Positions 47,693 to 63,729 of a stretch of 64,000 bases of DNA are shown here, one piece after another. The notes beneath the pieces were generated by a model. That model was not told where the DNA came from. It saw only the letters and a program-made list of their open reading frames with translations, and ran no database searches. The stretch spans positions 558,001 to 622,000 of the forward strand of contig NZ_JAUFPZ010000002.1 of NCBI RefSeq assembly GCF_030409505.1, in the 5' to 3' direction. Both the position numbers and the translations under genes were made by a program. Position 1 is the first letter of the stretch. Each line of letters begins with the position of its first letter. Origin of the DNA: Zunongwangia endophytica. Lineage in GTDB: Bacteria > Bacteroidota > Bacteroidia > Flavobacteriales > Flavobacteriaceae.

Positions 47693-47751
47693 AACCTTTT
47701 TAATGTTTTTTATAAAATTAGTTTGCATTTTGGTTGTGCTAATTGTTATAT

Positions 47752-47787
47752 AAAAAAAGCTGTCCTTTTAATTAGGACAGCTTTTTT
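47752..47787. terminator. terminator after the GMC operon
   Basis: AAAAAAAGCTGTCCT pairs with AGGACAGCTTTTTTA around a 6-nt loop. It lies between convergent genes and can serve both strands. Confidence 0.9.
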
Positions 47788-47931
47788 ACTTTACAGCAAT
47801 TTTTTGATTTCAAAAAAGCGGATTTGGAAATTAAAAGAATTTCTAATAGTATTTCAAATTCGAAAAAAGATTTTATTAAAGTATATCCAAATTAGATATT
47901 TATAGTAGATATTTTTTACTGAATATTTAAC

Positions 47932-48825
47932 CTATCTAACCAAAGTATAAATATCAGTTTTCCAATCAATAGAATTTCCTCCCATTTCTGGATTACTATT
48001 AAAAACTTCTAATACTTGGTCACTAAGGTTTAAATTATTCTTTTTAGCATAATCCTGTAATTTATACCAGCCGAAATGCGTGAATAGGTAATTCCCATTA
48101 AAGACCACATGCATTGCATTAAATGATGGCAGCGTTTTTAGTTTGATTTTTTCGGTTTCGGATAAACCTTCTTTTTGTATAATAGGAAAACAAAAATCGA
48201 ATTTAATTTCATTCGTTACTTTATCCCAGCTTTTAACCAAAACCCTTGGTTTTTCTGGCATTTCCAATTCATGTTCTAAAACATAGTCTGATAAATAACC
48301 AATATTGGTCATCATGAGCATGGCTTTTTGTTGTAACTGCCCTTTTAAACTCATGCACGCACAATCTGTTTTTGGCGCTTTTGCCTTACCAATTATTTTA
48401 ATAGAATAATTGCTTTTATCTGCTTCAATAGATTTTCGAATAATCTTGAGTTCTGCTTTAAGGCTATCTTGTTCTTTATTTTCTCCGAACAATAAAGAAA
48501 GCCGATTAGAAATACGATTTTGTGGATGATGCACAACTGCTTTTATCTGGTTTACAGAGTCATTTAAAGTTGAAATATTCCAATCGATTAGTAAGGGTTT
48601 ATCTTCAAAATCGAGTTTATGCGTTACTTTTTTATTCAGGCTTTCTTCAGTAATTTCGGCATTGCTGAAATGGTCATATTGCCAGTATTGTAATTTTTCG
48701 TAAATAATACCACTTGGAGTATTGGTGGTAAAGGCAATGCTATAGTCGTAAGGTTTAACAGCAAGATACCAGATAGAAATACCAACTAAGCCTACGATGA
48801 ATAGTCCCAAAAGTAGTTTCTTCAT
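47932..48825 (-). CDS. SRPBCC / GyrI-like domain protein with N-terminal anchor
   Basis: This 297-residue protein has an N-terminal hydrophobic anchor (about 4-22, LLGLFIVGLVGISIWYL) and then a region with the look of a SRPBCC (START-like) domain, followed by a GyrI-like small-molecule-binding half (about 165-297, with MHVVFNGNYLFTHFGWYKLQ). The domain calls are inferences from pattern only. It is the last gene of the haloperoxidase/SusCD cluster, 3 nt after the haloperoxidase gene. Its function is unknown. Confidence 0.6.
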   Translation of the reverse strand: MKKLLLGLFIVGLVGISIWYLAVKPYDYSIAFTTNTPSGIIYEKLQYWQYDHFSNAEITEESLNKKVTHKLDFEDKPLLIDWNISTLNDSVNQIKAVVHHPQNRISNRLSLLFGENKEQDSLKAELKIIRKSIEADKSNYSIKIIGKAKAPKTDCACMSLKGQLQQKAMLMMTNIGYLSDYVLEHELEMPEKPRVLVKSWDKVTNEIKFDFCFPIIQKEGLSETEKIKLKTLPSFNAMHVVFNGNYLFTHFGWYKLQDYAKKNNLNLSDQVLEVFNSNPEMGGNSIDWKTDIYTLVR

Positions 48826-48828
48826 TAT

Positions 48829-50169
48829 CTATAACGCTTTTACATTTAAAGTATTCACAACATGCTTTCCTAGATCGATTCCCTGCTCCAATCCATTTTC
48901 TATAGCTGCACGATAGTGTATGCCACCATAGAGTCTACTTAGCGCAGCTTCTTGAGCTGCATTTCTAAATGATGTATATTCTCTTTGCGGTAAGCCATAA
49001 CGTACCTCTGTATCATCTAAAAACTGAAATTGATCACCAAATAACTGCGTTAATATTTCTGCAGAAGTTCCACTTACAACAGAATGTCCGCTGGTGTACT
49101 CTGGGAATGGAGGTGTTTGTAAAACGGGTTTCCATTGGTCATCTATAAACTTATTAATAAGTGTTTCTGGACGTATAAGGTTACTGCTATATTTTTCGTC
49201 CCAGCAACTTATAAAAGCATCAGCAATACCTATACTTATAGTGGTATAGGCATAAACGGTTTTATCAAAATCAAGATTGGCTTTTTGACTTGCGATTTTT
49301 GTAATACCAATCCAGTGACCGCCAGGAGTAATTTTTTTTGTGGCAAACATTAAATGTCCACGTTGAGTTGAAACATAAGGATTACAATCCCAAAATTTAG
49401 CGATAGACAGCTCTTCAGATTTGTTCCCGGTTTTATCCATTTGATTTCTTACTTCATAAACCTCCATTAACTCTTTATAGAAAACGGATCCTACTTTCAT
49501 CGAGAATTCAGGATGAGGCTTTGGTTTAAATTGCGAAGCCGAATCTAATGTGAAAGGCCTAATTTTCATCCAATGTGGTTCTATCCCATCCATATAGGTT
49601 GGGGGAGTAGGCTGCCAACGCGAAACATCTTCAGTATACACCGAAAATTTAGGCATGGTTCGCGTTTCCTTATAGTTATCTTTATCGATCCATCTTTTGA
49701 AAGCATCAGCGACCTGCATTCCGTAGGTTTCAGAATTTAAAAAGATTTCCTCATTATTTTCTTTCCAGCGTACAAATAAACTATCCCTGTAATTGGTGAT
49801 TTCGGCTTCAGAAAAAATAAGCGTCTTCCCAATTTCTAATTGTGCGATTAAGGCCGCCATTTTATAATCTATATTTTTGGTAGTATCTAATACCGGGATT
49901 TTGATATCTGCATTTATAGTTTTTGTGAGGGACTCTAATTCGGGATTATGTTGCGCTACAATTTCGTAGGCAGCAAGGTTAGCATACGAATAAATTCGGC
50001 TTGCGACCGGTGGCGAGAAAATATCATGCACCATGATATTGGTAATTTGGTCTAAAGAGGCGTGATAATCTAAAGCGCTTATGTTTAGGGCTTCAATATT
50101 TGTATTTTTATCATCTGCACAGGCGCTGAGTATTGCTATACTTAAAAGTAACATTAGAGCTTTTCTCAT
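48829..50169 (-). CDS. vanadium-dependent haloperoxidase / PAP2-type lipoprotein
   Basis: This 446-residue protein has a lipobox (LSAC, Cys at 17) and the PAP2/vanadium haloperoxidase active-site set: KYSSNLIRP (about 327-335), EYTSGHSVVSG (about 359-369) and SRLYGGIHYRAA (about 412-423). All the vanadate- or phosphate-binding Lys, Arg, Ser, Gly, His residues are present. It may oxidise halide with hydrogen peroxide or act as a phosphatase; sequence alone does not decide. It lies 2 nt after the second VCBS gene. Confidence 0.87.
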   Translation of the reverse strand: MRKALMLLLSIAILSACADDKNTNIEALNISALDYHASLDQITNIMVHDIFSPPVASRIYSYANLAAYEIVAQHNPELESLTKTINADIKIPVLDTTKNIDYKMAALIAQLEIGKTLIFSEAEITNYRDSLFVRWKENNEEIFLNSETYGMQVADAFKRWIDKDNYKETRTMPKFSVYTEDVSRWQPTPPTYMDGIEPHWMKIRPFTLDSASQFKPKPHPEFSMKVGSVFYKELMEVYEVRNQMDKTGNKSEELSIAKFWDCNPYVSTQRGHLMFATKKITPGGHWIGITKIASQKANLDFDKTVYAYTTISIGIADAFISCWDEKYSSNLIRPETLINKFIDDQWKPVLQTPPFPEYTSGHSVVSGTSAEILTQLFGDQFQFLDDTEVRYGLPQREYTSFRNAAQEAALSRLYGGIHYRAAIENGLEQGIDLGKHVVNTLNVKAL

Positions 50170-50171
50170 GC

Positions 50172-53100
50172 TTAGTTGAGTTTATAAATTTCTGGTTTAT
50201 CGTTATTAAAGGTTACTAGTAAATAATCCTGGTTTTCAAAATTTAAAATATCAAGGTTAATTAACGCCTTTTGTGTAAAATTAATACCAAGATCTTTTGC
50301 TTCGATATAAGTGTCGACAGATTGCAGCATAATGCCGGCGAGTTGATCGAATTTGCCATGATATGGTATCGTTCCAAAATAATTACCGCCAATAAGCACT
50401 TCAGTTTTGTCGTCTTTATTAAAATCGTACTCCAAAAATGATGTTATTGGGGATATTTGTAAAGGATTTTTAAAAGCTTTAAAGCTGAAATTTCCATTTT
50501 CATTTAGCAAATATCCTGAAGCAAGTGTTTCAACTTCCAAAATTTCCGCTTTATTCAGCTTTTCGCTACTAAAGATTTCTTCGACCGTTTTACCTGCAAA
50601 ACTTTTATAGTTGGGGAATTTTTTACGCAGATAAGACAATTGTCCCACCAGCATATCTAAACCATTAACGGGATAGTAGTTGCCATTTTTTTCCTGGGCT
50701 AGAATGGTTTCAGTACTTCCGTTAGTATCAAAATCAAGATAATACATTTTAAGCGGATTCTCTCTATTTGCGCTCAATTTTGTGTTTAATCCCCAGTTTC
50801 CTAGCAAATAATCCTTATCACCATCATCGTCTATATCAAATGCGGCGATAGTTTGCCATAATCCTTTTAAATCACCTTCAATTTTGTATGCTGTAAGTTT
50901 TCCTCCTTGATTCTCATAGAATTTTGGTGCCATCCATTCGCCAACTACGATAAGATCGATCTGCCCATCATTATTAAAGTCGGTCCAGGTAGCATCGGTA
51001 ATCATTCCAATTTGTCCAAGATTATTTTTTTGATCGATGCTAAAATTTCCATTTTCGTTTTTCAGTAAAAATGACTGCGAAATTTTACCAAAATCGTTAG
51101 AAACTGCAGCGCCGCCTACAAAAAGATCTATATCGCCATCGCTATCATAATCGGCTGCTTTTACCACGCTACCATTTTCAAAATATTCCGGAAATTTACT
51201 TTTACTGAAGTTTTTATCTTGCTGGAGATATAATCGATCTAATAAGGCTTTGTTTTCACCATAATATTCTCCGCCCCCCGAAACAATAAGCAAATCATTT
51301 TCTCCATTATTGTCAAAATCTTCGATTACTGCCGAAATATCTTCTGTGTGAATATCCTCCTCTAAAGCCGAAATTGTTTGTTTTTCGAAGCCTTTTTTGG
51401 TTTGAAAATAGACTGCTGAATTGTCGAATTTTGCACTTCCGAAGAAAATATCTTCTTTCCCATCGCCATTGATATCTTTTACCACAACGGCCGGGCCACG
51501 ATCTGAAATTTTATACGGAATTAGTTTTTGGCGATCAAAATCTTGATAGCGATTCTCTTTATGCTCGTAATCAAGCCCTGGCAACGAATCGACTTTAGTA
51601 AACCATGGCTCATTTTTTATAAAAAGGGTAGTGTAGTTTACTTTTTTTAGATTTTCCTCTGGCTTTAGATAAAGTGTTTGCCCCAAGTCGATATTCGATA
51701 ATTTCTGAATAGAATTATTGGGCCAAATAATTAAAAGAGAATCGATTTTAGTAGTTTCCGGAAAGCCAAAATGTATTACAGCCTCTGAAGCCGATTGAAA
51801 TCCGCGTGTAGTAAATAATTGTTTTATTTGTCGGTTCCCATTTTGATAAGCAATTGCTTTACTGCCAATTCCCTGAATATTTGAAGTTTTGTACTCCAAT
51901 TTTATTTTCAGATAATTCTTATTGTTTTTAGTAATTAAGTTTTCATAAATCCGTGCCGGCGAGTTAATATTGTTGGTAATAATATCCAGATCGCCATCGT
52001 TATCTAAATCGGCATAAGCCGAGCCGGTACTCATAATACTGTCTTTTGAGATCCAGACGCCAGAAAGATCTTTAAAATTCAGGCTTTTACTACCTTTAAA
52101 AATACGGTTTGCTACCGCTCCAGAAGGCATCATTTCGATCGCTTTTTTATCGATTTTATTTCCTTTACTCAGTTCTTTTTGAATCTGATTATTCGAAACA
52201 TATTTTATATAATCGTAGTCATTTGGGCGCTTTGGGATTCCTGTTGAAATAAAAACGTCCTGTATTCCGTCTAAATCATAATCAGCAAAAAGCGCACTCC
52301 AGCTCCAATCGGTAGCGGCCAGACCACTAATTAATCCTAGATCCTGAAAATATTCACCTCCCTGATTTATTTGCAACATGTTGCGGCTAAATTGATCGTG
52401 ATAATGCAGACGTTCACTCTTCATTTTATGGATATCTGGGGAATCATCGCCCATACTCGTTTTAATCACTTTTTCATCATCAGGAAGCATATCCAAGGTG
52501 AGAATATCCAAAAATCCATCGTTATTCACATCGGCAGCATCGCTACCCATAGAAAATCTGCTGGTATGCCCAAATTTAGATTTTAGACTTTCGGTAAAAG
52601 TACCGTCACCATTATTCAGATAATAAAAATCGTCTTCATGAAAATCGTTGCTGATGTAGATATCGGTAAAGCCATCGTTATTAAAATCGGCTGTAGCTAT
52701 CCCAAGTCCGTAACCATTTGAGCCACCGTAAATCCCGGCTTCTTCGCTAACATCGGTAAAATGATCGCCGTCGTTTCTTAACAGTTTATCGCCACTTTTT
52801 TTATTCCGTTTCTCTCTAATTTCAGCAGGACCATAGGTGTTTACCGTATGCACAGCATGATTCAGCAAATACATATCTAAATCGCCATCGTTGTCATAAT
52901 CAAAAAAGGCAGCATTGGTACTATAATTCTGGAAATCTAAACCAAAATCGGCTGCTTTTTCAGTAAAAGTTCCGTTGCCATTATTGATAAAGAGTTCATT
53001 TTTCCCTTTTAGCCCATTAATACCAACAACGGCGCAAACATAGATATCCAAAAGATTGTCCCCATTAATATCCACTATCGCTGTACCCGTGTTCCAATCT

Positions 53101-53438
53101 GAATTTCCAGAAACTCCGGCAGTTTCAGTAATATCTTCAAATTGCAGGTTTCCTTTATTCAAAAATAATTTGTTGGGGACCTGATTTCCGGTAAGAAAAA
53201 TATCAGGCAGGCTGTCGTTATTAATATCGCCAATAGCAACGCCACCGCCATTATAATAATACAGGTAATCTAAAATGTTGAGGCTATCTGTTTCAGTGAG
53301 TGTGTTACTGAAATTAAGATTGGTGATTTCTGCATCCAATTCTTTAAATAGGGCAGGAGCAGTATCGTCCTGTTCTATCTCTTTTTTAGAACAGGCCGCC
53401 ATAATCACCAAAATCAATATGTAGCAAAGCTTTTTCAT
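50172..53438 (-). CDS. FG-GAP/VCBS-repeat lipoprotein with UnbV domain, second copy
   Basis: This 1088-residue lipoprotein (lipobox MAAC, Cys at 16) has many FG-GAP repeats with DxDxDG-type calcium loops, for example AIGDINNDSLPDIFLTGN, FFDYDNDGDLDMYLL and YADLDNDGDLDIIT. An ASPIC/UnbV domain lies at about 520-590 (IGSKAIAYQNGNRQIKQLF, then FTTRGFQSASEAVIHFGFP). A second set of repeats fills the C-terminal half. It is probably at the cell surface and binds a polymer or partner. Its start codon overlaps the stop of the first copy by one base (TAATG). Confidence 0.9.
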   Translation of the reverse strand: MKKLCYILILVIMAACSKKEIEQDDTAPALFKELDAEITNLNFSNTLTETDSLNILDYLYYYNGGGVAIGDINNDSLPDIFLTGNQVPNKLFLNKGNLQFEDITETAGVSGNSDWNTGTAIVDINGDNLLDIYVCAVVGINGLKGKNELFINNGNGTFTEKAADFGLDFQNYSTNAAFFDYDNDGDLDMYLLNHAVHTVNTYGPAEIREKRNKKSGDKLLRNDGDHFTDVSEEAGIYGGSNGYGLGIATADFNNDGFTDIYISNDFHEDDFYYLNNGDGTFTESLKSKFGHTSRFSMGSDAADVNNDGFLDILTLDMLPDDEKVIKTSMGDDSPDIHKMKSERLHYHDQFSRNMLQINQGGEYFQDLGLISGLAATDWSWSALFADYDLDGIQDVFISTGIPKRPNDYDYIKYVSNNQIQKELSKGNKIDKKAIEMMPSGAVANRIFKGSKSLNFKDLSGVWISKDSIMSTGSAYADLDNDGDLDIITNNINSPARIYENLITKNNKNYLKIKLEYKTSNIQGIGSKAIAYQNGNRQIKQLFTTRGFQSASEAVIHFGFPETTKIDSLLIIWPNNSIQKLSNIDLGQTLYLKPEENLKKVNYTTLFIKNEPWFTKVDSLPGLDYEHKENRYQDFDRQKLIPYKISDRGPAVVVKDINGDGKEDIFFGSAKFDNSAVYFQTKKGFEKQTISALEEDIHTEDISAVIEDFDNNGENDLLIVSGGGEYYGENKALLDRLYLQQDKNFSKSKFPEYFENGSVVKAADYDSDGDIDLFVGGAAVSNDFGKISQSFLLKNENGNFSIDQKNNLGQIGMITDATWTDFNNDGQIDLIVVGEWMAPKFYENQGGKLTAYKIEGDLKGLWQTIAAFDIDDDGDKDYLLGNWGLNTKLSANRENPLKMYYLDFDTNGSTETILAQEKNGNYYPVNGLDMLVGQLSYLRKKFPNYKSFAGKTVEEIFSSEKLNKAEILEVETLASGYLLNENGNFSFKAFKNPLQISPITSFLEYDFNKDDKTEVLIGGNYFGTIPYHGKFDQLAGIMLQSVDTYIEAKDLGINFTQKALINLDILNFENQDYLLVTFNNDKPEIYKLN

Positions 53439-56400
53439 TACTGAAGTTTGTACAATTTCGGTTTTTCGTTGTTAATTCCCACTAACAGTAAATTTTCGCC
53501 TTTTTTATTTTGAATAATTTTTAGATCCCGAACCTGACCTTTAAAAAATAGACCTGTTTTTTCTGAAGTTTCGGCTTTAAAATTGCCTTTTCCATCGTTA
53601 ACTAAAACAAGTCCATAATTAGAATCTAATCTTGAAAACTGAGGTTTTAGATCGTAGTCATTACCGGCAATAATAATATCCGAATTTTCGTCATTGTTAA
53701 CATCTATGACTTCGATGGCATGAATAGAACTAAATTGTGCCATAGGCGGCATTTCCTTAATGTCAAAGTTTCCATCTCCTTTGTTGATCGCTATAACACT
53801 TTTAAAGCTGCTAATTTCCTTTACTAAAGCTTGGGCTAAAACCTCTTTAGAAAATAACTGATCTATAGATTTTGTTGCATATTCAGCGAATTTTAAGTTT
53901 TGTTTTTTAACCGAAGAAATCTGGCCAGAAAGTTCTCTACGTAAATGTATGGGAACGTCTTTTCCATTAATAGGTCTCGTGAAAATTTGTTCTGTGGTGC
54001 CATTATCATCAAAATCGCTGATGTATACTTTCACCGGTTTTTTTTTACTTGCATTGTAAAAAGAATTAGTGCCGCGATTTCCTAAAATCAAGTCGGGGAG
54101 TCCATCTTTATTAAGATCGGCAACTTTCATACTGTTCCATGCACCAGCGTATTCACTAAGATTAGAGCTTATTTGAGTTAATTTTTTATTCTGAACTTTA
54201 AAAATTGCCGGTGCCTTCCAATCTCCCGTGACGATTAGTTCAGCAGTCCCATTGTTATTGATATCTACCCAGCTCGCATCGGTGATCATTCCCAGATTGT
54301 CGAGATTAGATGTATCTAACGCGGTAAATTGTCCGTTTCCATTATTCTTAAGCAATTGATGCATGGGATTAATACCATAAACTCCAGGAACGCTTCGATA
54401 TCCAATAAATAGATCGGTAATTCTATCATTATCAAAATCATTTGCTGCAATAACAGCTGCGTTTTGGTCATTGATAGGAAGAGCTGAATTTTCTTCGCTG
54501 AATTTTCCATTCCCATCATTCAGATAAATTCGAGTTTCATATTGCGCTTTATCAGCATAAATAGTATTCCCGCCAGAAATTATAATTAGGTCTTCAAAGT
54601 CATCATTATTAATATCAAGAAAAATAGCACCGGTTTCTTCAAAAACTTTAGATTCTTCGGTGTTATCCAGAATCGTTTGTAAAAATCTACCATTAGACTG
54701 CTGAATATAAAGTACTCCCGACTGATTTCGCGCTCCTGCCATGTAAAAGTCATCATTTCCGTCATTATTCACATCGGCAACAGCAATTGCAGGCCCCTCG
54801 CGAGAAAGCATTTTGTTGATCAAACCTTCGTAATCGTAATCTATGTAGTTATCTTCTTTATGTGCAGTAAAATCGGTGTCGATTTCTTTGAAATATTGAT
54901 TGTAATTGATTTTTGAAAGACTGAATTCTTCTGCTTCAGTCTGGTCGAAAACTAAAAGTGTATTAATTTCAACATTAGTTTTTAAAGAGGCCATTTTATC
55001 AGGCCATGTTATACGTATCGAATCAATTTTTTCTTGTGCTCCTATACCAAAAGTTAAGTTGTAATCTGTTGAAGACTGAAAACCACGCGTAGGAATAAGT
55101 TGTTGGGTAAATTGATTATCTTCAGTATAAACTACCACTTTACTACCAATAGCGAAGGTGTTTTTATCGTTCCCTTTTAGCTCAATTTTAGTCCAGTTAT
55201 GATCTCTCTTCTTGTTCGTTTCATTGCGGTAAACAAACAATTCCATATTCACGTTGTTCACGATAAGATCTAAATCGCCATCATTATCTAGATCGCCATA
55301 AGCCGATCCATTAGAAAAACTTGGCGTATCAAATCCCCAATCTTCTGTAGTGTTAGAAAAACTTAAATCGGCATTATTTTTAAATGCAAAATTAGGAATA
55401 GCCGTGCTGGGCATTTCGTTTAAAATAGAGTCAAATTCCTTTTTTTGCCCGGTAAGCACCATATCCTGAAGAATATCGTTAGCAAAGAAATCCATAAAAT
55501 CCTGATTAGTAAGATCGTGGTAGATGCCGTTACTTACATAAATATCTTTATAACCATCGTTATCCATATCGAAGATTAAGGCACCCCAACTCCAATCTGT
55601 TTGCGCTACGTCACTATAAAATGCGATTTCAGAAAAACTATTATTTCCAGTATTTAGCTGAAGACTATTTTGCATAAACTGATGATAGAAATCGCGATCT
55701 TGCTTTAATTTATAAAGATCAAAACGTTCAAATTCAGTAGTGTTTTTTATGCGTTCATCATTTTTGGGGAGCATATCAGTTACAAAAATTTCAGGTAATC
55801 CATCATTGTTGATATCAGCAATATCAGCACCCATAGAAAACATGCTTAAATGCGAAATTCTATTTTTTATTCCCTCATTAAAAGTACCGTTCCCTTCATT
55901 AATATATAGATAGTCACGCTCGTAGAAATCGTTTGAAACATAGATATCGGGCAGCATATCATTATTGACATCACCAATGGTCACCCCAAGCCCAAAACCA
56001 ATTAGACTACCATAAATACCGGCTTCTTCACTAACATCTTTGAATTTTCCATTATCATTTCGTAATAGTTTATCTCCGCCGCCTTTAAAAACCTCTGGTA
56101 AATTCCAGTCTTTACTACGAAGTTCTCTTTTATTATTGTAACCAAGACTTGATGCAGGAATAAAACTATTGTTGAGGATATAAACATCCAAATCACCATC
56201 TAGATCATAGTCGAAAAATGCAGCATGAGTAGTAAAACCATTTTCATTGAGATTATATTCTGAAGCTTTTTCTGTAAAAGTAAGATCCCCATTATTTATA
56301 TAAAGTTCATTTCTACGATCTTCACCTTCAATGTTGCCTGCATTACAAACATAGATGTCTAGCAAACCGTCGCTGTTAATATCTACCATAGTGACACCGG

Positions 56401-56788
56401 TAGACCATGAACGATTTCCCTGAGTTGCTGAAGTTTCAGAAATATCTTTAAACTTAAAATCACCTTGATTAAGGTATAGTTTATTTTTACCCATGTTTGA
56501 AGTAAGATAAACATCTGGAAGTCCATCGTTATTGATATCGCCAATTCCTACACCCGCGCCGTTATAGAAGTTGCGATATCTGAAAATATTAAAATCTTTT
56601 TCGTTTTTTACCTGATTGATGAAAGAAATGCCCGTTGAATCTTTTGGCATAGCAGTAAATAGAAAATCGTTAGGTTCTTTATATTGCTTTTTGGAATCTT
56701 TATTACATCCATATAAAAAAGATAATAAGATGACAATACCTATATACCTGTTAAAGCATAAACTTAAAATCGCTGAAAATTTGTTCAT
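53438..56788 (-). CDS. FG-GAP/VCBS-repeat lipoprotein with UnbV domain, first copy
   Basis: This 1116-residue protein is a paralogue of the next gene, with a longer signal region and lipobox LYGC (Cys at about 28). FG-GAP repeats (GIGDINNDGLPDVYLTSN, FDYDLDGDLDVYILNN, YGDLDNDGDLDLIVNN) flank a UnbV domain (IGSKVVVYTEDNQFTQQLI and TRGFQSSTDYNLTFGIG). It overlaps the second copy by one base, so translation is coupled. A terminator-like hairpin separates it from susD. Confidence 0.9.
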   Translation of the reverse strand: MNKFSAILSLCFNRYIGIVILLSFLYGCNKDSKKQYKEPNDFLFTAMPKDSTGISFINQVKNEKDFNIFRYRNFYNGAGVGIGDINNDGLPDVYLTSNMGKNKLYLNQGDFKFKDISETSATQGNRSWSTGVTMVDINSDGLLDIYVCNAGNIEGEDRRNELYINNGDLTFTEKASEYNLNENGFTTHAAFFDYDLDGDLDVYILNNSFIPASSLGYNNKRELRSKDWNLPEVFKGGGDKLLRNDNGKFKDVSEEAGIYGSLIGFGLGVTIGDVNNDMLPDIYVSNDFYERDYLYINEGNGTFNEGIKNRISHLSMFSMGADIADINNDGLPEIFVTDMLPKNDERIKNTTEFERFDLYKLKQDRDFYHQFMQNSLQLNTGNNSFSEIAFYSDVAQTDWSWGALIFDMDNDGYKDIYVSNGIYHDLTNQDFMDFFANDILQDMVLTGQKKEFDSILNEMPSTAIPNFAFKNNADLSFSNTTEDWGFDTPSFSNGSAYGDLDNDGDLDLIVNNVNMELFVYRNETNKKRDHNWTKIELKGNDKNTFAIGSKVVVYTEDNQFTQQLIPTRGFQSSTDYNLTFGIGAQEKIDSIRITWPDKMASLKTNVEINTLLVFDQTEAEEFSLSKINYNQYFKEIDTDFTAHKEDNYIDYDYEGLINKMLSREGPAIAVADVNNDGNDDFYMAGARNQSGVLYIQQSNGRFLQTILDNTEESKVFEETGAIFLDINNDDFEDLIIISGGNTIYADKAQYETRIYLNDGNGKFSEENSALPINDQNAAVIAANDFDNDRITDLFIGYRSVPGVYGINPMHQLLKNNGNGQFTALDTSNLDNLGMITDASWVDINNNGTAELIVTGDWKAPAIFKVQNKKLTQISSNLSEYAGAWNSMKVADLNKDGLPDLILGNRGTNSFYNASKKKPVKVYISDFDDNGTTEQIFTRPINGKDVPIHLRRELSGQISSVKKQNLKFAEYATKSIDQLFSKEVLAQALVKEISSFKSVIAINKGDGNFDIKEMPPMAQFSSIHAIEVIDVNNDENSDIIIAGNDYDLKPQFSRLDSNYGLVLVNDGKGNFKAETSEKTGLFFKGQVRDLKIIQNKKGENLLLVGINNEKPKLYKLQ

Positions 56789-56828
56789 TGTTGGGGTACG
56801 CTGATTAAAAATACCAAGTAAATTAAAA

Positions 56829-56876
56829 AATAAAATAAAAAAGACCTAAGTGGCGGCTAGCCGTCTCTTAAGTCTC
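56829..56876 (-). terminator. terminator-like hairpin between susD and the VCBS genes
   Basis: Read on the minus strand, AGACTTAAG and CTTAGGTCT pair (one mismatch) with an inner CGGCTAGCCG palindrome, followed by TTTTTTATTTT. It may stop part of the transcription from susCD before the VCBS genes. Confidence 0.65.
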
Positions 56877-56894
56877 TTCTAAAAATGATTAAGT

Positions 56895-58436
56895 CTAATA
56901 TCCCGGATTCTGTGTCAAATTAGGGTTTGAAGTTAAGGCTACAGAAGGAATCGGGAATAATGCTCTAAATTCTTCCGTATTATCCTTGAACTCCCAAGTA
57001 GAATTGAAAGTTCCAAATCTAATTTGGTCCTGTCTTCTCCAGTATTCAGTATATAGTTCACGTCCGCGCTCATCTAGCATATCCTGTGCAGTTAATGAAG
57101 ATAATGGTGCAGCTTTTCTTATGGTACGTAAGTTATTTACCATAGTTAGTGCATCATCAGAGCTAGAACCCCCTCGCATAATTGCTTCAGCTTTCATTAA
57201 ATATGCATCAGCAAATCTAAATACAACTACATGGCCAGTGAAAGCACCGTTAGAAGGGTGATATTTTAGTACACGTATACCATTTCTTTCGTTGTTGCCT
57301 AAAAGACCTGGGAGATCTTTGGTAAAAACTAATGGATTACCAGCTCTATCCGTAAGCTCGCTACCATCGGCAGCATATTGCTGATTTATTAGAAAACCTT
57401 TGCCTATATAAGTACCAGTCGAATTACCATTTAAAGGTACGTAACCGCGTCTTTCTTCCTGTCCAGATCCTGGCGTATTTACGTTTTCATCACCTTCAAA
57501 TAGATCATAGAATTCTGCTAAAGTTGAGAATCCATTCCATCCACCAGCGGCGTTATCATCTGTTCCCTGCGCATAATGGAGCGTAGACCACATTCGGTTT
57601 CCGGCACTAGATGTTGTATAAAGAATGGTCTCTGTATCATCTGAAGGTTCAAAAATTTCAAAAAAACCTTCCTGGAGTTCAAATCCTGCGCCTATAATTG
57701 CATCAACATGATCTATAACCGCTGTCATGTCTGCCGCTTCAGCAGATGCCGTCGCTAAATAAATATGCTTATTAAGGTATAATTTGGCCAATAAATAATG
57801 AGCGGCTGCTTTAGAAGCCTGTACTGTACCATTACCAGGTCCTATACTTGGTAAATCTGGCATAGCTTCGTTAAGATCCTGCATAACAAATTCAAAAGCT
57901 TCACTTCTTGTCATTACTCGAGGATTTACATCTGGACCTTCATCAACTTCTCTAAAAGGAACCTGTCCATAAAGATCCATTATCCAGTACATATGAAATG
58001 CTCTTAAGAATTTTGCTTCTGCGATTTGTTGTACATTTGCATCGCTCTCTGGAGCAATTATTTCAGTGAGATTGAATATAGCAGAGTTAAACTCGTTCCA
58101 TGTATTTAGAACAAAGTTGTGGTTCGCATCCCACGTATGCTGATGTAACGTTCTCCAAACTCCATTATCCCCCCAGTCAGTTCCTCTGGTAGGAATTAAT
58201 AACTCGTCTGAAGTACCTTCATTAAGTCCGTATAAATTTTCATGGGTTTCTACATTTGTTCGAAGGCTATTGTAGGCGTTACTTAAAGATCCAGCAACAT
58301 CAGAAACACCAGTAAAGTCTCCAGTAGTCTGCACGCGCGATACAGAATCTGTGTCTTCTAACTCCAGGTCTGTACACGCGATAAAAGATCCCAGTGCTAC
58401 TAAGAGTATTGAAAGTTTTATAAATCTATTTTTCAT
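56895..58436 (-). CDS. SusD/RagB family nutrient-binding lipoprotein
   Basis: This 513-residue lipoprotein (lipobox FIAC, Cys at 21) is a SusD-like surface protein. It has the typical helical TPR-type body (AKAAHYLLAKLYLNKHIYLA) and the C-terminal SusD signature with LYTEYWRRQDQIRFGTFNST and FPIPSVALTSNPNLTQNPGY. It should bind an oligomer and hand it to the SusC barrel encoded 9 nt upstream. No CAZyme is nearby to define the ligand. Confidence 0.95.
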   Translation of the reverse strand: MKNRFIKLSILLVALGSFIACTDLELEDTDSVSRVQTTGDFTGVSDVAGSLSNAYNSLRTNVETHENLYGLNEGTSDELLIPTRGTDWGDNGVWRTLHQHTWDANHNFVLNTWNEFNSAIFNLTEIIAPESDANVQQIAEAKFLRAFHMYWIMDLYGQVPFREVDEGPDVNPRVMTRSEAFEFVMQDLNEAMPDLPSIGPGNGTVQASKAAAHYLLAKLYLNKHIYLATASAEAADMTAVIDHVDAIIGAGFELQEGFFEIFEPSDDTETILYTTSSAGNRMWSTLHYAQGTDDNAAGGWNGFSTLAEFYDLFEGDENVNTPGSGQEERRGYVPLNGNSTGTYIGKGFLINQQYAADGSELTDRAGNPLVFTKDLPGLLGNNERNGIRVLKYHPSNGAFTGHVVVFRFADAYLMKAEAIMRGGSSSDDALTMVNNLRTIRKAAPLSSLTAQDMLDERGRELYTEYWRRQDQIRFGTFNSTWEFKDNTEEFRALFPIPSVALTSNPNLTQNPGY

Positions 58437-58445
58437 AATAATTTT

Positions 58446-61400
58446 TTAAAATGATACGTTCAACCCAAAAGTGAATGTTCTTGGCTTAGGATAAGCAGTA
58501 TAATCGATACCGGCAGATGGAATTCCGTTCAATGCTTTGTTAGTATCAACCTCAGGATCTAAACCAGAATAATCTGTGATTACAAATAGATTCTGACCGT
58601 TTAAGTATAATCTTAAAGTCTTGAACATGCTATCTTCGTTAAGATCGAAGTTATACCCTAAAGTGGCATTTTGCATTCTTAGAAAATCTCCTTTTTCCAA
58701 GAATCTTGTAGAAACATCTGGAGCGTTTGAAGCAGATTCGCCATTATCAACTACATTGCGTGTCACATTACGACCATTATTTAAGGCTCCTTTTGTGAAA
58801 AATGCGTTTTCAGTATTATTATAGATATAGTGACCATACTGTCCTGCCATAAATAGGGAAAGATCCCAGTTTTTATATTCTACTCTTGTTGAAATACCAA
58901 CATTAGTTGTTGGAAGTGCACTTTTTCCTATAAAAGTTTGAACATCACCATTAGGATAAATACTTTGCCCATTCTCATCAAAGCCACCAAATTCTCTTAA
59001 GTAGTAGGAGAATAAAGGTTGTCCACCAGCGAGTAATTGAGCAAATGCACCGGTAAGCCCCTGTCCATTAATTTCTCCTGTTCTGTTTTGTCCTGCGTAA
59101 TCTTCAACCATGTTGTCGTTGTAGGCTATATTAAACCCGAAATTCCAGTACCAGTCTTCATTATTTATAATGTTATAATCAATAGCAAATTCAACACCTT
59201 TATTAATTACATGTGCATCTAAATTTTGATAAACGAATGGTTGAGGTGAAGGCTGCGCAGAGAATACCTGAATAAGTAGATCTGTTGTATTTTTATAATA
59301 AAAGTCTAAAGATCCACTTAATCTATCCTGCATAAAGCCAAAATCTAAACCAAGGTTGGTCTGGCTTGTTTCTTCCCATTGCAAATCTGGATTGGCAAAG
59401 GATACTTGCGTAACACCTGGGCGATTAATATTTCCATTATCCTGAATACCAAAATCGGCATATCGTTCTCTAACAGTATATTGATTATAAGGAATTTCTT
59501 GATTACCTGTGATACCATAACCTAATCTAAGCTTAAGAGTAGAAAAGGCTTCAGGAATAAAGTCTTCTTCTGCTAATTGCCATGCGAAAGCTCCAGATGG
59601 GAAAACACCATATTTATTGTTACCTCCAAATCTGGTAGAACCATCAGCTCTTAGCGTAGCTGTAAATAAATATTTTCCTGTAAGCTCAAAATTTACTCTA
59701 GCAAAATAAGACTGTAGTTCATCTGTAATATTAAAACTATCGTAAGCTACAGAAGTTGGCCCAATTCCTGAAGGAGATGTCAAATCTTCCGTTGCGATGT
59801 TTGGGAACAATCTGGTTACAAAAAAACCATTAGGATCGTATCCATATTGTTGGTAAGAACCAGAAATATTATTTCTTAAGATGTTATTTGCATCATTTAA
59901 ACTACTGGTCATTTCTCCTAAATCTTCACTCTGGAATCCAAAACCACTTACATTATAACCTTTTCTTTCGAAATCTTGGAAAGAGTATCCAACCAAAGCT
60001 TCAAACTTCGAGTTCTCAAACATCTTTTCGTAATTCAAAGTAAATTCCATCAAACGGTTTGTAGCTTCAACTTGATTTAGCGCGCCTCTACCATTATCTG
60101 GTACGCCAGATTGAATCCCGGTTAAACCGCCAGATATTGCTGCTTCTCTGTTCGACTCAGAAGTATCATATCCAAAGTTTATTTTAGCATTCAAGCCTTC
60201 AATAACTTCATAATCGGCAGAGAAATTTAGAAGCACTCTATCGGTTTCCGATTCATCTGAAAAGTATTTTAATAGTGATAAAGGATTTATAATGCTTCCC
60301 TGAGGCTGAAAATCTGGATCTGCTGGGAAAGTGGGATTAGCCTGATAAGCTGCGCCTAATAAATCTCCTTGAAATCCTGCGTTATTAGAAATTGGTGCTC
60401 TGGTATCGTTTACTCTTGATAGAGTAGACTGTACATTCAATTTTAATTTATCGTCAAACAAACGCTGAGTAATATTGAATCTTCCAGAAAGACGCTCTAG
60501 AGCAGAATTTTCTACAATACCTTGTTGATCTGCATAACTTAAAGAAGCGCGATAATTACCACTATTATATGAGTCGGAATACGACAAATTATGAATCTGA
60601 GAAAAAGCCGTTCTGGTAATTTCGTCTTGAAAATCGGTATTTGCGCCTTGGTCTAAAATAGCAAGATCTCCACCTAATTCAGATACAGCTTCTAAATACT
60701 CATCTCTATCCAATAAATCATACGTATTGGCGGGAGAGGCTAAACTTAAGGTTGTACCATAATCCAGTCTAGACTCAGTTCCTCTACCAGTTTTGGTAGT
60801 AATAATTACCACTCCGTTCGCACCACGAGAACCGTAAATGGCGGTAGCAGAAGCATCTTTTAAAACGCTCATACTTTCAATATCTGAAGGATTTAAAAAG
60901 TTAAGCGGATTTTTTGCTGAACTTGATCCAAAACCTACATCGTCCCCACCAGAAGAAACTTCATTTCCAGCTAAAGGAACACCATCTACCACAAATAGTG
61001 GATTGTTACCACCTCTTACCGAAGAAGTACCACGAATTCTAATGTTTACGCCACTTCCTGGCTCACCACTAGTGGTAGTGATTTGTAAACCCGCAGTTTT
61101 ACCTTGTATTAACTCTTCAGGAGAAGAGATAACACCCTGGTTAAAATCTTCAGCAGAAACGGTTGCTACGGCACCTGTTGCATCCTTAACGGTGGTAGAT
61201 CCGTAACCAATAACTACGACTTCGCTTAAGGCAGCAGCATCTTCATATAAAGTTACATTGATAGTCGATCTACCCTCGACGGCAATTTCCTGTTGTGAGT
61301 ATCCTACAAAGCTAAAAACCAGTGTTGCATTTTCTCCAACATTATTTAGACTGTAGTTTCCATCGAAATCTGTCGTGGTTCCATTTGAGGTGCCTTTTAC

Positions 61401-61529
61401 CAGAATATTCACTCCTGGAATTGGCATAGAACCATCTGTAACTGTTCCCGAAATCGATTGCGCCTTTGCAAAAGAAAAACAAAGCGCAACAAAAAGAAAC
61501 AGACTAAACCTGAGTAATCCTTTTTTCAT
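58446..61529 (-). CDS. SusC/RagA family TonB-dependent outer-membrane transporter
   Basis: This 1027-residue outer-membrane protein has a signal peptide (1-23), a carboxypeptidase regulatory-like domain (about 25-100; MPIPGVNILVKGTSNGTTTD), a plug with the SusC signature SMSVLKDASATAIYGSRGAN and a long beta barrel ending FTFGLNVSF. It works with the SusD lipoprotein encoded 9 nt downstream to import a glycan or similar oligomer. No FecR or sigma extension domain is present at the N-terminus. Confidence 0.96.
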   Translation of the reverse strand: MKKGLLRFSLFLFVALCFSFAKAQSISGTVTDGSMPIPGVNILVKGTSNGTTTDFDGNYSLNNVGENATLVFSFVGYSQQEIAVEGRSTINVTLYEDAAALSEVVVIGYGSTTVKDATGAVATVSAEDFNQGVISSPEELIQGKTAGLQITTTSGEPGSGVNIRIRGTSSVRGGNNPLFVVDGVPLAGNEVSSGGDDVGFGSSSAKNPLNFLNPSDIESMSVLKDASATAIYGSRGANGVVIITTKTGRGTESRLDYGTTLSLASPANTYDLLDRDEYLEAVSELGGDLAILDQGANTDFQDEITRTAFSQIHNLSYSDSYNSGNYRASLSYADQQGIVENSALERLSGRFNITQRLFDDKLKLNVQSTLSRVNDTRAPISNNAGFQGDLLGAAYQANPTFPADPDFQPQGSIINPLSLLKYFSDESETDRVLLNFSADYEVIEGLNAKINFGYDTSESNREAAISGGLTGIQSGVPDNGRGALNQVEATNRLMEFTLNYEKMFENSKFEALVGYSFQDFERKGYNVSGFGFQSEDLGEMTSSLNDANNILRNNISGSYQQYGYDPNGFFVTRLFPNIATEDLTSPSGIGPTSVAYDSFNITDELQSYFARVNFELTGKYLFTATLRADGSTRFGGNNKYGVFPSGAFAWQLAEEDFIPEAFSTLKLRLGYGITGNQEIPYNQYTVRERYADFGIQDNGNINRPGVTQVSFANPDLQWEETSQTNLGLDFGFMQDRLSGSLDFYYKNTTDLLIQVFSAQPSPQPFVYQNLDAHVINKGVEFAIDYNIINNEDWYWNFGFNIAYNDNMVEDYAGQNRTGEINGQGLTGAFAQLLAGGQPLFSYYLREFGGFDENGQSIYPNGDVQTFIGKSALPTTNVGISTRVEYKNWDLSLFMAGQYGHYIYNNTENAFFTKGALNNGRNVTRNVVDNGESASNAPDVSTRFLEKGDFLRMQNATLGYNFDLNEDSMFKTLRLYLNGQNLFVITDYSGLDPEVDTNKALNGIPSAGIDYTAYPKPRTFTFGLNVSF

Positions 61530-61815: not shown

Positions 61816-62691
61816 TTACTTAACAGCAATTTTTAAGCTTTTTGCAGCAATTTTTACTTCAATATTCTGTGTGTTTTCGATAAATTCTCCATCAATTTGA
61901 AAAGCTATGGGCTTTTTACAGCTAATTTTCGCAGCACTTGTAGAGATAGTTTCAGCGAAGTCTGAGTCGAATTTTACTTCTTCTCGAAGTGTACCTAATA
62001 TTTCAGGAATATCTAAATTTTTAAAAATCAATATTTCAAATTTTCCATCATCGTGTTCGCCTTCAGGATTAATCTTGGCGCCGGTACCATATTTCTTACA
62101 ATTGGCAATAGCTAGCATAATTCCTTTATGATTTTGGATCTTTCCATCAATTTCCACTTCATATTCATAAGGATATTTACTCTTTATCAATGTGGGAATA
62201 GTCTGCATCAAGTAACCAAATTTACCCCGAATAGCCGCTGTTTCGTAATTTTCAATTAACTCAGCATTTAGGCCAATATCGCTTAGGTGTAAACACAACT
62301 GATTATTAATTTGCAATACATCTAAATTTGTAAATTTATCTCCTAAAGCAATTTTAATTTGTTCTTTTCGATCTTTTGGTATCCCTAGATTTAGAGCAAG
62401 ACCATTGGCAGATCCCGCTGGGAAAATGGCAATCGGTAATTCTTTATGCAATAAAGCTTCAGCAACCATATTAATGGTACCGTCACCACCAACAACTAAC
62501 ATTCGTTCTGGCTCAACTTTATCTACTTCTTGCTTTATTTTCTGAATATCATTATTACCATCAGTTTTATAAAGATGAAATTTCCAATTCTTATTTTCAA
62601 CTTCTTTGCGAACTTCAGTAATAAGATTATCCTTTTCTTCACCGCCCGAAACCGGGTTTACAACCATTAAAATATTCCTAAAGTCTCCCAT
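61816..62691 (-). CDS. diacylglycerol/lipid kinase family protein
   Basis: This 291-residue protein has the DAGK catalytic domain with NPVSGG near the start, the nucleotide loop VVGGDGTINMVAEALL and the C-terminal YegS-like domain (GKFEILIFKNLD). It may phosphorylate diacylglycerol or another lipid. I use the ATG at 62691, since the protein then starts MGDFRNILMVVNPVSGG; an ATG at 62712 adds seven residues. It is divergent from the App1 gene by 69 bp. Confidence 0.9.
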   Translation of the reverse strand: MGDFRNILMVVNPVSGGEEKDNLITEVRKEVENKNWKFHLYKTDGNNDIQKIKQEVDKVEPERMLVVGGDGTINMVAEALLHKELPIAIFPAGSANGLALNLGIPKDRKEQIKIALGDKFTNLDVLQINNQLCLHLSDIGLNAELIENYETAAIRGKFGYLMQTIPTLIKSKYPYEYEVEIDGKIQNHKGIMLAIANCKKYGTGAKINPEGEHDDGKFEILIFKNLDIPEILGTLREEVKFDSDFAETISTSAAKISCKKPIAFQIDGEFIENTQNIEVKIAAKSLKIAVK

Positions 62692-62760
62692 TTTGTATAA
62701 AATTATATTCAAAATTAACTAATTTGGAGCAGGCCTACTCTTTATAAAAAATTAAATAAT

Positions 62761-63729
62761 TTGAAACTTGACTTAAAACTTTATCGCGGTTACGCTAATG
62801 ACAAAGAATTGGTCGTTTTTGGCCATCTTTTTAAAAGCTGGGCTCCCGATAAATACCGCTTAGACAGAAAAGGAATAAAACACACCTCTGCCATTATTCA
62901 TAAGTTTAGAATAAAACCTTTATCGAATTATGAACTTCAGTTATGCTTTAGAGGAAAAAAATGGAAAACCAAAACCATGGAGGATGGTTACTTTAGATTT
63001 ACGGTTCCTTTTCAGGAAAACTTAGAAAGTGGTTGGCATGAGTATGAGGTTATCGCTAAGACCGAGGATCGTTTTGGAATTATCGAAAAAGGGGAGTTGC
63101 TAAAACCATACGAGAGTAAGCTGGGAATTATTTCTGATATCGATGATACATTTTTAATATCTCATAGTAATAGCTTTTTTAAAAAGCTTTATGTGATGTT
63201 ATCTAAAAACGTAAACCGCAGGAAAATCTTTGAAGATGTTGTAGACCACTATAAATCTCTTAGTAAAGCTGGACAAGATAGTAAAGAAGCATCGAACTCT
63301 TTTTTTTATGTTTCCAGTAGCGAGTGGAATTTGTATGATTTTATCGCTGAATTTGCTGAAATGCACGAGCTACCAAAAGCGGTGATTAAGTTGAAGAAAA
63401 TAAAAACAGGAATTTCAGATTTTATAAAAACGGGTAGGGGAAGTCACGATCATAAATTTCAGAAAGTAAAAGATATTATCTCATTTTATCCAAATTTGGA
63501 TTATGTTTTATTGGGTGACGATTCACAGCAGGATGTTCATATTTACGAGCGCATTTGTAAAACATATCCCACGAACGTACGATCGATCTACATAAGACAA
63601 ACCGGAAAAAACAAAAACGAAGAGGTAAGCGCTACTTTAAAGAATATCGAAAGTCTGGATGTCGCGACCTGTTATTTTAAAGATAGCCACGAGGCGATTG
63701 CGCATTCAGATAAAATCAATATTATTTAA
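62761..63729 (+). CDS. App1-like phosphatidate phosphatase (DUF2183)
   Basis: This 322-residue protein matches the App1 catalytic domain (DUF2183), a haloacid-dehalogenase fold with DIDDTFLISHS (DxDxT motif, about 122-132) and the later VLLGDDSQQD. It likely removes phosphate from phosphatidic acid or a similar lipid, consistent with the neighbouring lipid kinase. The start is TTG at 62761; no in-frame ATG lies before residue 76 or so, and the conserved region begins earlier. Confidence 0.85.
   Translation: MKLDLKLYRGYANDKELVVFGHLFKSWAPDKYRLDRKGIKHTSAIIHKFRIKPLSNYELQLCFRGKKWKTKTMEDGYFRFTVPFQENLESGWHEYEVIAKTEDRFGIIEKGELLKPYESKLGIISDIDDTFLISHSNSFFKKLYVMLSKNVNRRKIFEDVVDHYKSLSKAGQDSKEASNSFFYVSSSEWNLYDFIAEFAEMHELPKAVIKLKKIKTGISDFIKTGRGSHDHKFQKVKDIISFYPNLDYVLLGDDSQQDVHIYERICKTYPTNVRSIYIRQTGKNKNEEVSATLKNIESLDVATCYFKDSHEAIAHSDKINII

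Follow-up and report, generated by a model that had tools for sequence, protein, structure and literature searches.

A conserved gene row joining SusCD, FG-GAP/UnbV lipoproteins and a vanadium haloperoxidase in Flavobacteriaceae, with a possible role in iodine uptake

The vanadium haloperoxidase of Zobellia galactanivorans, whose crystal structure is known (4cit/4usz), is reportedly an iodoperoxidase, to go by the title of Fournier 2014. A knockout mutant of this species has reportedly been obtained (PMC8490876). Iodine uptake itself has been described in Arenibacter C-21, where it requires glucose, O2 and Ca2+, a system that generates hydrogen peroxide (H2O2) or oxidises iodide can substitute for glucose, and a haloperoxidase has been proposed for the H2O2-dependent uptake (PMC5064120). 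According to passages of a review, the HIO that extracellular vanadium iodoperoxidases produce subsequently enters the cells by transport, and for the uptake route of oxidised iodine in marine Flavobacteriaceae those passages name no transporter (PMC12535851). Here we describe a row of six co-directional open reading frames (ORFs) from Zunongwangia endophytica, which joins an orthologue of the Zobellia enzyme to a SusC-SusD pair. The row occupies 47932-61529 on the minus strand of the window, that is, the whole 64,000-nucleotide stretch that was analysed (positions 558,001 to 622,000 of contig NZ_JAUFPZ010000002.1, assembly GCF_030409505.1); it starts with SusC at the 61529 end and ends with a small anchored protein, and the original prediction had its coordinates and six-gene content exactly right. 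The features are as follows.

58446..61529, minus strand: SusC/RagA, a TonB-linked importer of the outer membrane, 1027 aa, which opens the row (TIGR04056 at 720.1 bits; domains: plug, barrel, CarbopepD_reg_2)
56895..58436, minus strand: SusD-family surface lipoprotein, 513 aa (SusD_RagB, 1.9e-19; lipobox ahead of Cys-TDLELED)
56789..56894, minus strand: gap between the SusD and UnbV genes with a predicted terminator-like hairpin and U tail, a possible attenuator (minimum free energy -22.3, z -3.64)
53438..56788, minus strand: FG-GAP/UnbV lipoprotein A, 1116 aa (Pfam domains; 10 DxDxDG-type motifs)
50172..53438, minus strand: FG-GAP/UnbV lipoprotein B, 1088 aa (Pfam domains; 11 DxDxDG-type motifs; a CRTAC1-like part, then beta-propeller-like repeats after the UnbV domain)
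48829..50169, minus strand: vanadium haloperoxidase lipoprotein of the Zobellia iodoperoxidase type, 446 aa (4cit match, motif residues and clade)
47932..48825, minus strand: protein with a membrane helix, an SRPBCC domain and a GyrI-like domain, 297 aa (structure model and fold matches)
47752..47788, no strand assigned: strong hairpin between convergent operons, T-tailed in either direction, a likely shared terminator (z -7.07 on the minus and -6.44 on the plus strand for 47740-47810)

From SusC to the small protein the intergenic gaps measure 9, 106, -1, 2 and 3 nt, SusC and SusD adjoining at 9 nt. Like SusCD-type polysaccharide utilisation loci, the row combines a SusC-SusD pair with surface lipoproteins, but it has an oxidative enzyme in place of carbohydrate-active enzymes or a regulator: Pfam and NCBIfam revealed no glycoside hydrolase, lyase, sulfatase or regulator among the six genes, in agreement with the earlier view that this is not a standard polysaccharide utilisation locus. 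Across the whole genome, the two UnbV proteins are the only UnbV-domain matches and the haloperoxidase is the only match to itself.

The assignment of the 446-aa protein as an orthologue of the Zobellia vanadium iodoperoxidase, and hence of its enzyme type, is well supported by sequence comparison. Residues 1-443 align with residues 9-449 of 4cit at 61% identity (E 4.2e-188), and K326, R333, S360-G361-H362, R412 and H418, which we take to be the vanadate-site and catalytic residues, are invariant in 31 aligned rows; the enzyme looks intact. In a tree of 134 haloperoxidases the window enzyme and 4cit fall into one clade with a support of 1.0, and 90 of the 110 tips of this clade, leaving out the window itself, come from loci that bear the small protein. 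A scan of named genomes, from which the best 80 of 283 relatives were kept with flanks of 10 kb, showed that a permissive lipobox pattern matches 75 of 80 haloperoxidases, 48 of these 75 having at least two acidic residues just after the Cys, which speaks for a surface location. The full-length match, the seven invariant motif residues and the lipobox thus bear out the earlier description of a vanadium-haloperoxidase/PAP2 lipoprotein with all catalytic residues. One haloperoxidase match (G088:C4:581754-583052) is listed with an in-frame TAG, though its open frame is 451 aa.

Pfam sees only PAP2 in the haloperoxidase (29.3 bits, cut-off 27.2), raising the possibility of a phosphatase acting on lipids or phosphorylated ligands. 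A pair of genes for a diacylglycerol kinase and an APP1 phosphatidate phosphatase lies upstream of SusC in the window (61816-63729) and directly downstream of the small protein in nine of the 80 loci (Christiangramia/Gramella, Gillisia and Salegentibacter; for example L061, L062, L066 and L068); it is a rearranged but persistent neighbourhood, and its two enzymes would suit a phosphatase. Against this, the enzyme is a lipoprotein by its lipobox and is 61% identical over its full length to a solved vanadium haloperoxidase; because of that similarity a plain lipid phosphatase is unlikely, and we regard a phosphatase function of any of these kinds as very improbable.

Far from being unique to this genome, as the original prediction had allowed it might be, the content and order of the row recur in other genomes. 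Of the 80 loci, 77 have UnbV genes in the stretch and 70 have the small protein, and in 68 UnbV, enzyme and small protein follow one another directly, counts that, like those of the surveys below, are raw and not corrected for kinship, and that are drawn from a set sharing some genomes with the 40 stretches considered below. SusC and SusD, which the 10 kb flanks cut, were found in at least 14 and at least 32 loci, both figures being lower bounds. Relatives include Arenibacter, Maribacter, Leeuwenhoekiella, Christiangramia, Salegentibacter, Gillisia, Muriicola and Flagellimonas, and in all nine Arenibacter loci among the 80 the enzyme and the small protein occur together with SusD and both types of UnbV. 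We further surveyed 199 genomes of the family, taking one place per genome, with cuts set after seeing the lists (at least 49% identity for UnbV B; E <=1e-30 for the small protein, whose list jumps from 1.1e-34 to 1.2e-13). Of these genomes, 96 have the enzyme, 65 have UnbV B and 63, which cover about 60 genera, have the small protein. The small protein accompanies the enzyme in 62 of its 63 genomes and is adjacent to it in 60 of those 62; UnbV B does so in 64 of 65, adjacent in 62 of 64. With looser cuts, UnbV proteins were found in 132 and small proteins in 117 of the 199 genomes, so paralogues are spread more widely than the enzyme. A complete SusC-SusD-UnbV(2-3)-enzyme-small protein set running in one direction was present in 21 of 40 further stretches, SusC being cut by the edge in L142 and lying in two ORFs in L145. 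The remainder comprised five with UnbV, enzyme and small protein in which SusC or SusCD was not found within the stretch, three without the small protein, two with UnbV B and the enzyme only, six with the enzyme alone, and three others (L150-L152). This recurrence of content and order is not due to chance and the row is a conserved unit; the linkage is well supported on genomic comparison.

As to its function, we tentatively prefer a reading that we hold to be possible rather than probable, in which the six genes form a conserved transport-plus-oxidation module of marine Bacteroidota that oxidises iodide at the cell surface with H2O2 and hands over to SusCD a ligand that has been iodinated or oxidised; here the ligand, the halide and the import are what we infer. 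The enzyme, on the cell surface, would use H2O2 from algae or from sugar oxidation together with seawater iodide to form HOI/I2; the UnbV proteins, with their many Ca2+-type motifs, would dock near SusCD and hold the ligand while it is oxidised or iodinated; SusCD would import the product; and the SRPBCC-GyrI protein may bind a small hydrophobic product once inside. An importer combined with an iodoperoxidase and Ca-type propellers would agree with the physiology of Arenibacter C-21, and by analogy the row could explain its iodine uptake, the module supplying the missing uptake step of an accumulation that depends on H2O2, O2, Ca2+ and glucose. Common to both are a proposed haloperoxidase, the need for H2O2 and Ca2+ and a marine Flavobacteriaceae host, all nine Arenibacter loci carrying the module; the comparison extends to loci other than that of C-21, whose genome (BDGL01000000) is described in a paper that names no transporter or UnbV protein (PMC5064120).

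A more ambitious version seems rather unlikely to us: dedicated iodine acquisition, in which a TonB-powered SusCD tied through Ca2+-binding UnbV lipoproteins to the iodoperoxidase would have iodide oxidised and organified at the surface in the manner of the thyroid, and the iodinated carrier imported. If true, it would be, to our knowledge, the first case of SusCD machinery organised around a redox enzyme rather than around hydrolases. The original prediction spoke of an undescribed system, which holds in part. The enzyme is known, its Zobellia orthologue having a crystal structure, and so are its family, SusCD and the UnbV proteins; the fixed linkage to SusCD, UnbV and SRPBCC-GyrI seems undescribed. 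We found no description of the gene row in the open-licence papers that were searched, among which Fournier 2014 and most subscription papers do not figure. In any case the locus gives concrete candidates for each step, as an operon-like row (enzyme plus small protein) in 62 of 199 family genomes. It suggests that SusCD machinery can pair with an oxidising enzyme, which bears on algal iodine cycling and on the retention of radioiodine by marine bacteria.

The two UnbV lipoproteins are paralogues of about 1,100 residues, as had been predicted. Each carries nine FG-GAP_3 stretches and one UnbV_ASPIC domain (PF13517 and PF07593 above cut-off in both), with 10 DxDxDG-type (Ca2+-type) motifs in A and 11 in B. 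The structure model of B (predicted local distance difference test, pLDDT, 83.6) places propeller-type beta repeats on either side of the UnbV domain, and from the FG-GAP repeats and the modelled strands we read the protein as two putative propellers. Its best solved structural match is murine cartilage acidic protein 1 (CRTAC1; 9etn, E 1.2e-26, template modelling score 0.70 on the target), with which it shares an FG-GAP propeller and a UnbV domain, whereas the bacterial protein is about twice as long, with a second repeat set and a lipid anchor added. The permissive lipobox pattern matched 76 of 80 UnbV A-type, 78 of 82 UnbV B-type and 13 of 14 SusD proteins. When UnbV loci away from the enzyme were fetched (n=19), 16 had a SusC match and none a haloperoxidase match; the UnbV proteins are therefore general SusCD companions, the special feature of the present row being the enzyme and the small protein. 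The absence of a haloperoxidase match from these 19 loci rules out UnbV proteins as iodine-specific. A role as a tyrosine-rich iodine acceptor was likewise rejected, as Tyr makes up 4.2% and 4.9% of the two proteins and 4.8% of SusC. Among the loci away from the enzyme, L163 (2361-14766) has the order SusC-SusD-UnbV-(protein of ~1050 aa), the genes scanned being DUF5107/TPR, LacI and SSF, and L157, L158, L160, L162, L165-L167, L169 and L171 resemble it by gene size. In one genome a molybdopterin sulfite-oxidase-like protein and a small possible cytochrome are encoded directly before the UnbV genes (L138, 8512-10201).

The small protein has no Pfam or NCBIfam match by itself. Its structure model (pLDDT 92.7) shows a membrane helix, an SRPBCC fold at about residues 23-140 and a GyrI-like domain at 141-297. 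At E 0.05 the Pfam GyrI-like profile recognised 39 of the 55 members of its family, the window member being outside the 39; by its fold, the small protein does contain a GyrI-like domain. The name SRPBCC-like protein given to it earlier was thus correct for one domain and incomplete for the whole, an N-terminally anchored GyrI-like fusion. Only two of 70 small proteins match the lipobox pattern, both probably spuriously, and the window member has no lipobox by this pattern; the protein probably faces the periplasm, because its N-terminus is positive. The nearest folds to its GyrI-like half are binders of rhodamine, closthioamide and albicidin, besides GyrI and SOUL. Its C-terminal half thus has the fold of the CTR107/CtaZ/GyrI small-molecule binders, from which the added membrane helix and SRPBCC domain set it apart, as does its presumed location outside the cytoplasm. 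Such a fold would suit a model in which an algal aromatic (phenolic) ligand is halogenated or set free by oxidation through the haloperoxidase, held by the UnbV proteins, imported by SusCD and bound by the GyrI-like protein. A similar fold does not reveal a ligand, and no aromatic-degradation gene was seen among the neighbours scanned, most neighbours being outside that scan; we rank this model third and consider it unlikely. In 45 of 80 loci, a gene for a protein of ~286 aa without a Pfam match (cluster 3; for example L065, 12316-13173) lies on the downstream side of the haloperoxidase or the small protein; not seen in Zunongwangia loci, it also occurs where UnbV genes are missing (L122, L128).

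More distant loci bring in sugars. At E 1e-40, 58 of 296 genomes of the phylum had an enzyme match, and 20 loci were taken from outside the family, counting L179, whose haloperoxidase ORF was lost to an overlap filter, and L190, a stub of 4.8 kb. A UnbV gene lies in the stretch in 12 of the 20. In three (L176, L178 and L180), SusC, SusD, two to three UnbV genes and the small protein stand in nearly the same order, with one extra gene before the enzyme, a kojibiose hydrolase by NF053734 (1125.6, 1125.5 and 1109.1 bits; cut-off 800), which has a solved relative (7fe3). In a fourth, L188, a kojibiose hydrolase (1206 bits) lies two genes before the enzyme without UnbV, and L185 has a different glycosidase-like gene between UnbV and the enzyme. 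The positions of the kojibiose hydrolases (GH65, NF053734), in or beside the haloperoxidase rows, are as follows.

L176, 13466-15499
L178, 4414-6453
L180, 13548-15569
L188, 5205-7226

The statement in the original prediction that no glycan-degrading enzyme is present therefore holds for the row in the window and fails for three of the 20 distant loci and for L185. The enzymes of L176, L178 and L180 belong to another haloperoxidase clade in the tree, and that these loci retain the partners despite a different enzyme lineage suggests a need for haloperoxidase function there; the kojibiose hydrolase in the same three loci points to a glucoside link.

The main rival to surface iodide oxidation, ranked directly behind it and somewhat doubtful in our judgement, follows from these genes. 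SusCD and UnbV would capture and import a glycoside or oligosaccharide, perhaps an alpha-glucoside, and the iodoperoxidase would only guard the surface against algal H2O2 or competitors. The kojibiose hydrolases and the gene of L185 favour it, and so do a GH65 gene near the enzyme in eight and an SSF symporter in 28 of the 80 loci (one member of each scanned), and the LacI regulators, SSF symporters, DUF5107/TPR protein and two sulfatases (the latter in L168) found where neighbours in other UnbV-SusCD loci were scanned. In passages of one study, the Zobellia iodoperoxidase vIPO3 rose on Ascophyllum versus alginate, which fits algal contact without naming a ligand (PMC9296495). However, nothing lies between UnbV, enzyme and small protein in the 68 consecutive loci, implying that within Flavobacteriaceae no hydrolase belongs to that part of the row, and an enzyme that did no more than guard would have no need to keep its place next to UnbV B and the small protein.

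The sugar genes listed above also weigh against iodide oxidation coupled to import, as do several further points. SusCD systems usually carry oligomers, not iodine, and the 19 UnbV loci without a haloperoxidase indicate that the pairing of UnbV with SusCD is not tied to iodine. The choice of halide is unreadable from the sequence. Of the six stretches in which the enzyme stands alone, four hold distant haloperoxidases, and two of the 40 stretches (L151, L152) have a second-type enzyme, one of them beside a sulfatase. Finally, the Zobellia row itself departs from the arrangement in the window. We take genome G006 to be that of a close relative, within Zobellia, of the organism that supplied the crystal structure, because its enzyme is 98.4% identical to 4cit; the order UnbV-UnbV-UnbV-enzyme-small protein is intact there, with the same UnbV and small-protein neighbours as in the window, but the SusC and SusD, which are of the same type (scoring 1440 and 806), are split off further upstream by five genes, namely an SSF symporter, two DNA polymerase genes, a GH2 enzyme and an unassigned gene. 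In G219, another genome of the genus of G006, a second haloperoxidase, 44% identical, stands behind SusC-SusD-UnbV-UnbV (L152, 5293-18415); because of it, the pairing with SusCD-UnbV appears to exist outside the 4cit clade too. An iodide symporter function for the SSF transporter was considered and rejected, since some loci pair it, by eye, with xylose-isomerase-like and xylulokinase-like genes, indicating a sugar symporter.

Regulation of the row was approached by motif scans and by folding. A pattern search detected no Bacteroidetes-type promoter upstream of SusC, a sigma-70 scan gave 42 sites against 53.9 expected from shuffles, and a terminator scan gave 7 against 8.3 and missed both hairpins found by folding. 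We folded the SusD-UnbV gap in 18 compact cases (20-260 nt, gaps of 2-5 kb being left out; six from Zunongwangia including the window), each against 40 shuffles. In 17 of the 18 gaps, the window included, none of the 40 shuffles formed as good a hairpin, and in L144 one did. The hairpin is possibly an attenuator, predicting that the UnbV-enzyme part is less expressed than SusCD, while the hairpin at 47752-47788 is the likely shared terminator of the convergent operons.

Beyond that terminator, a GMC and gluconate_2-dh3 pair runs convergent with the row. The original prediction found the adjoining 3-keto-sugar locus suggestive, a hint that proved weak: the GMC and gluconate_2-dh3 partners are kept in only seven of the 80 loci, in Zunongwangia, Salegentibacter and Salinimicrobium only, and coupling to the neighbouring sugar-oxidation genes was rejected because this adjacency is limited to a lineage and is not core. 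In the distant locus L186, a GMC gene directly upstream of SusC gives a weak hint of such coupling.

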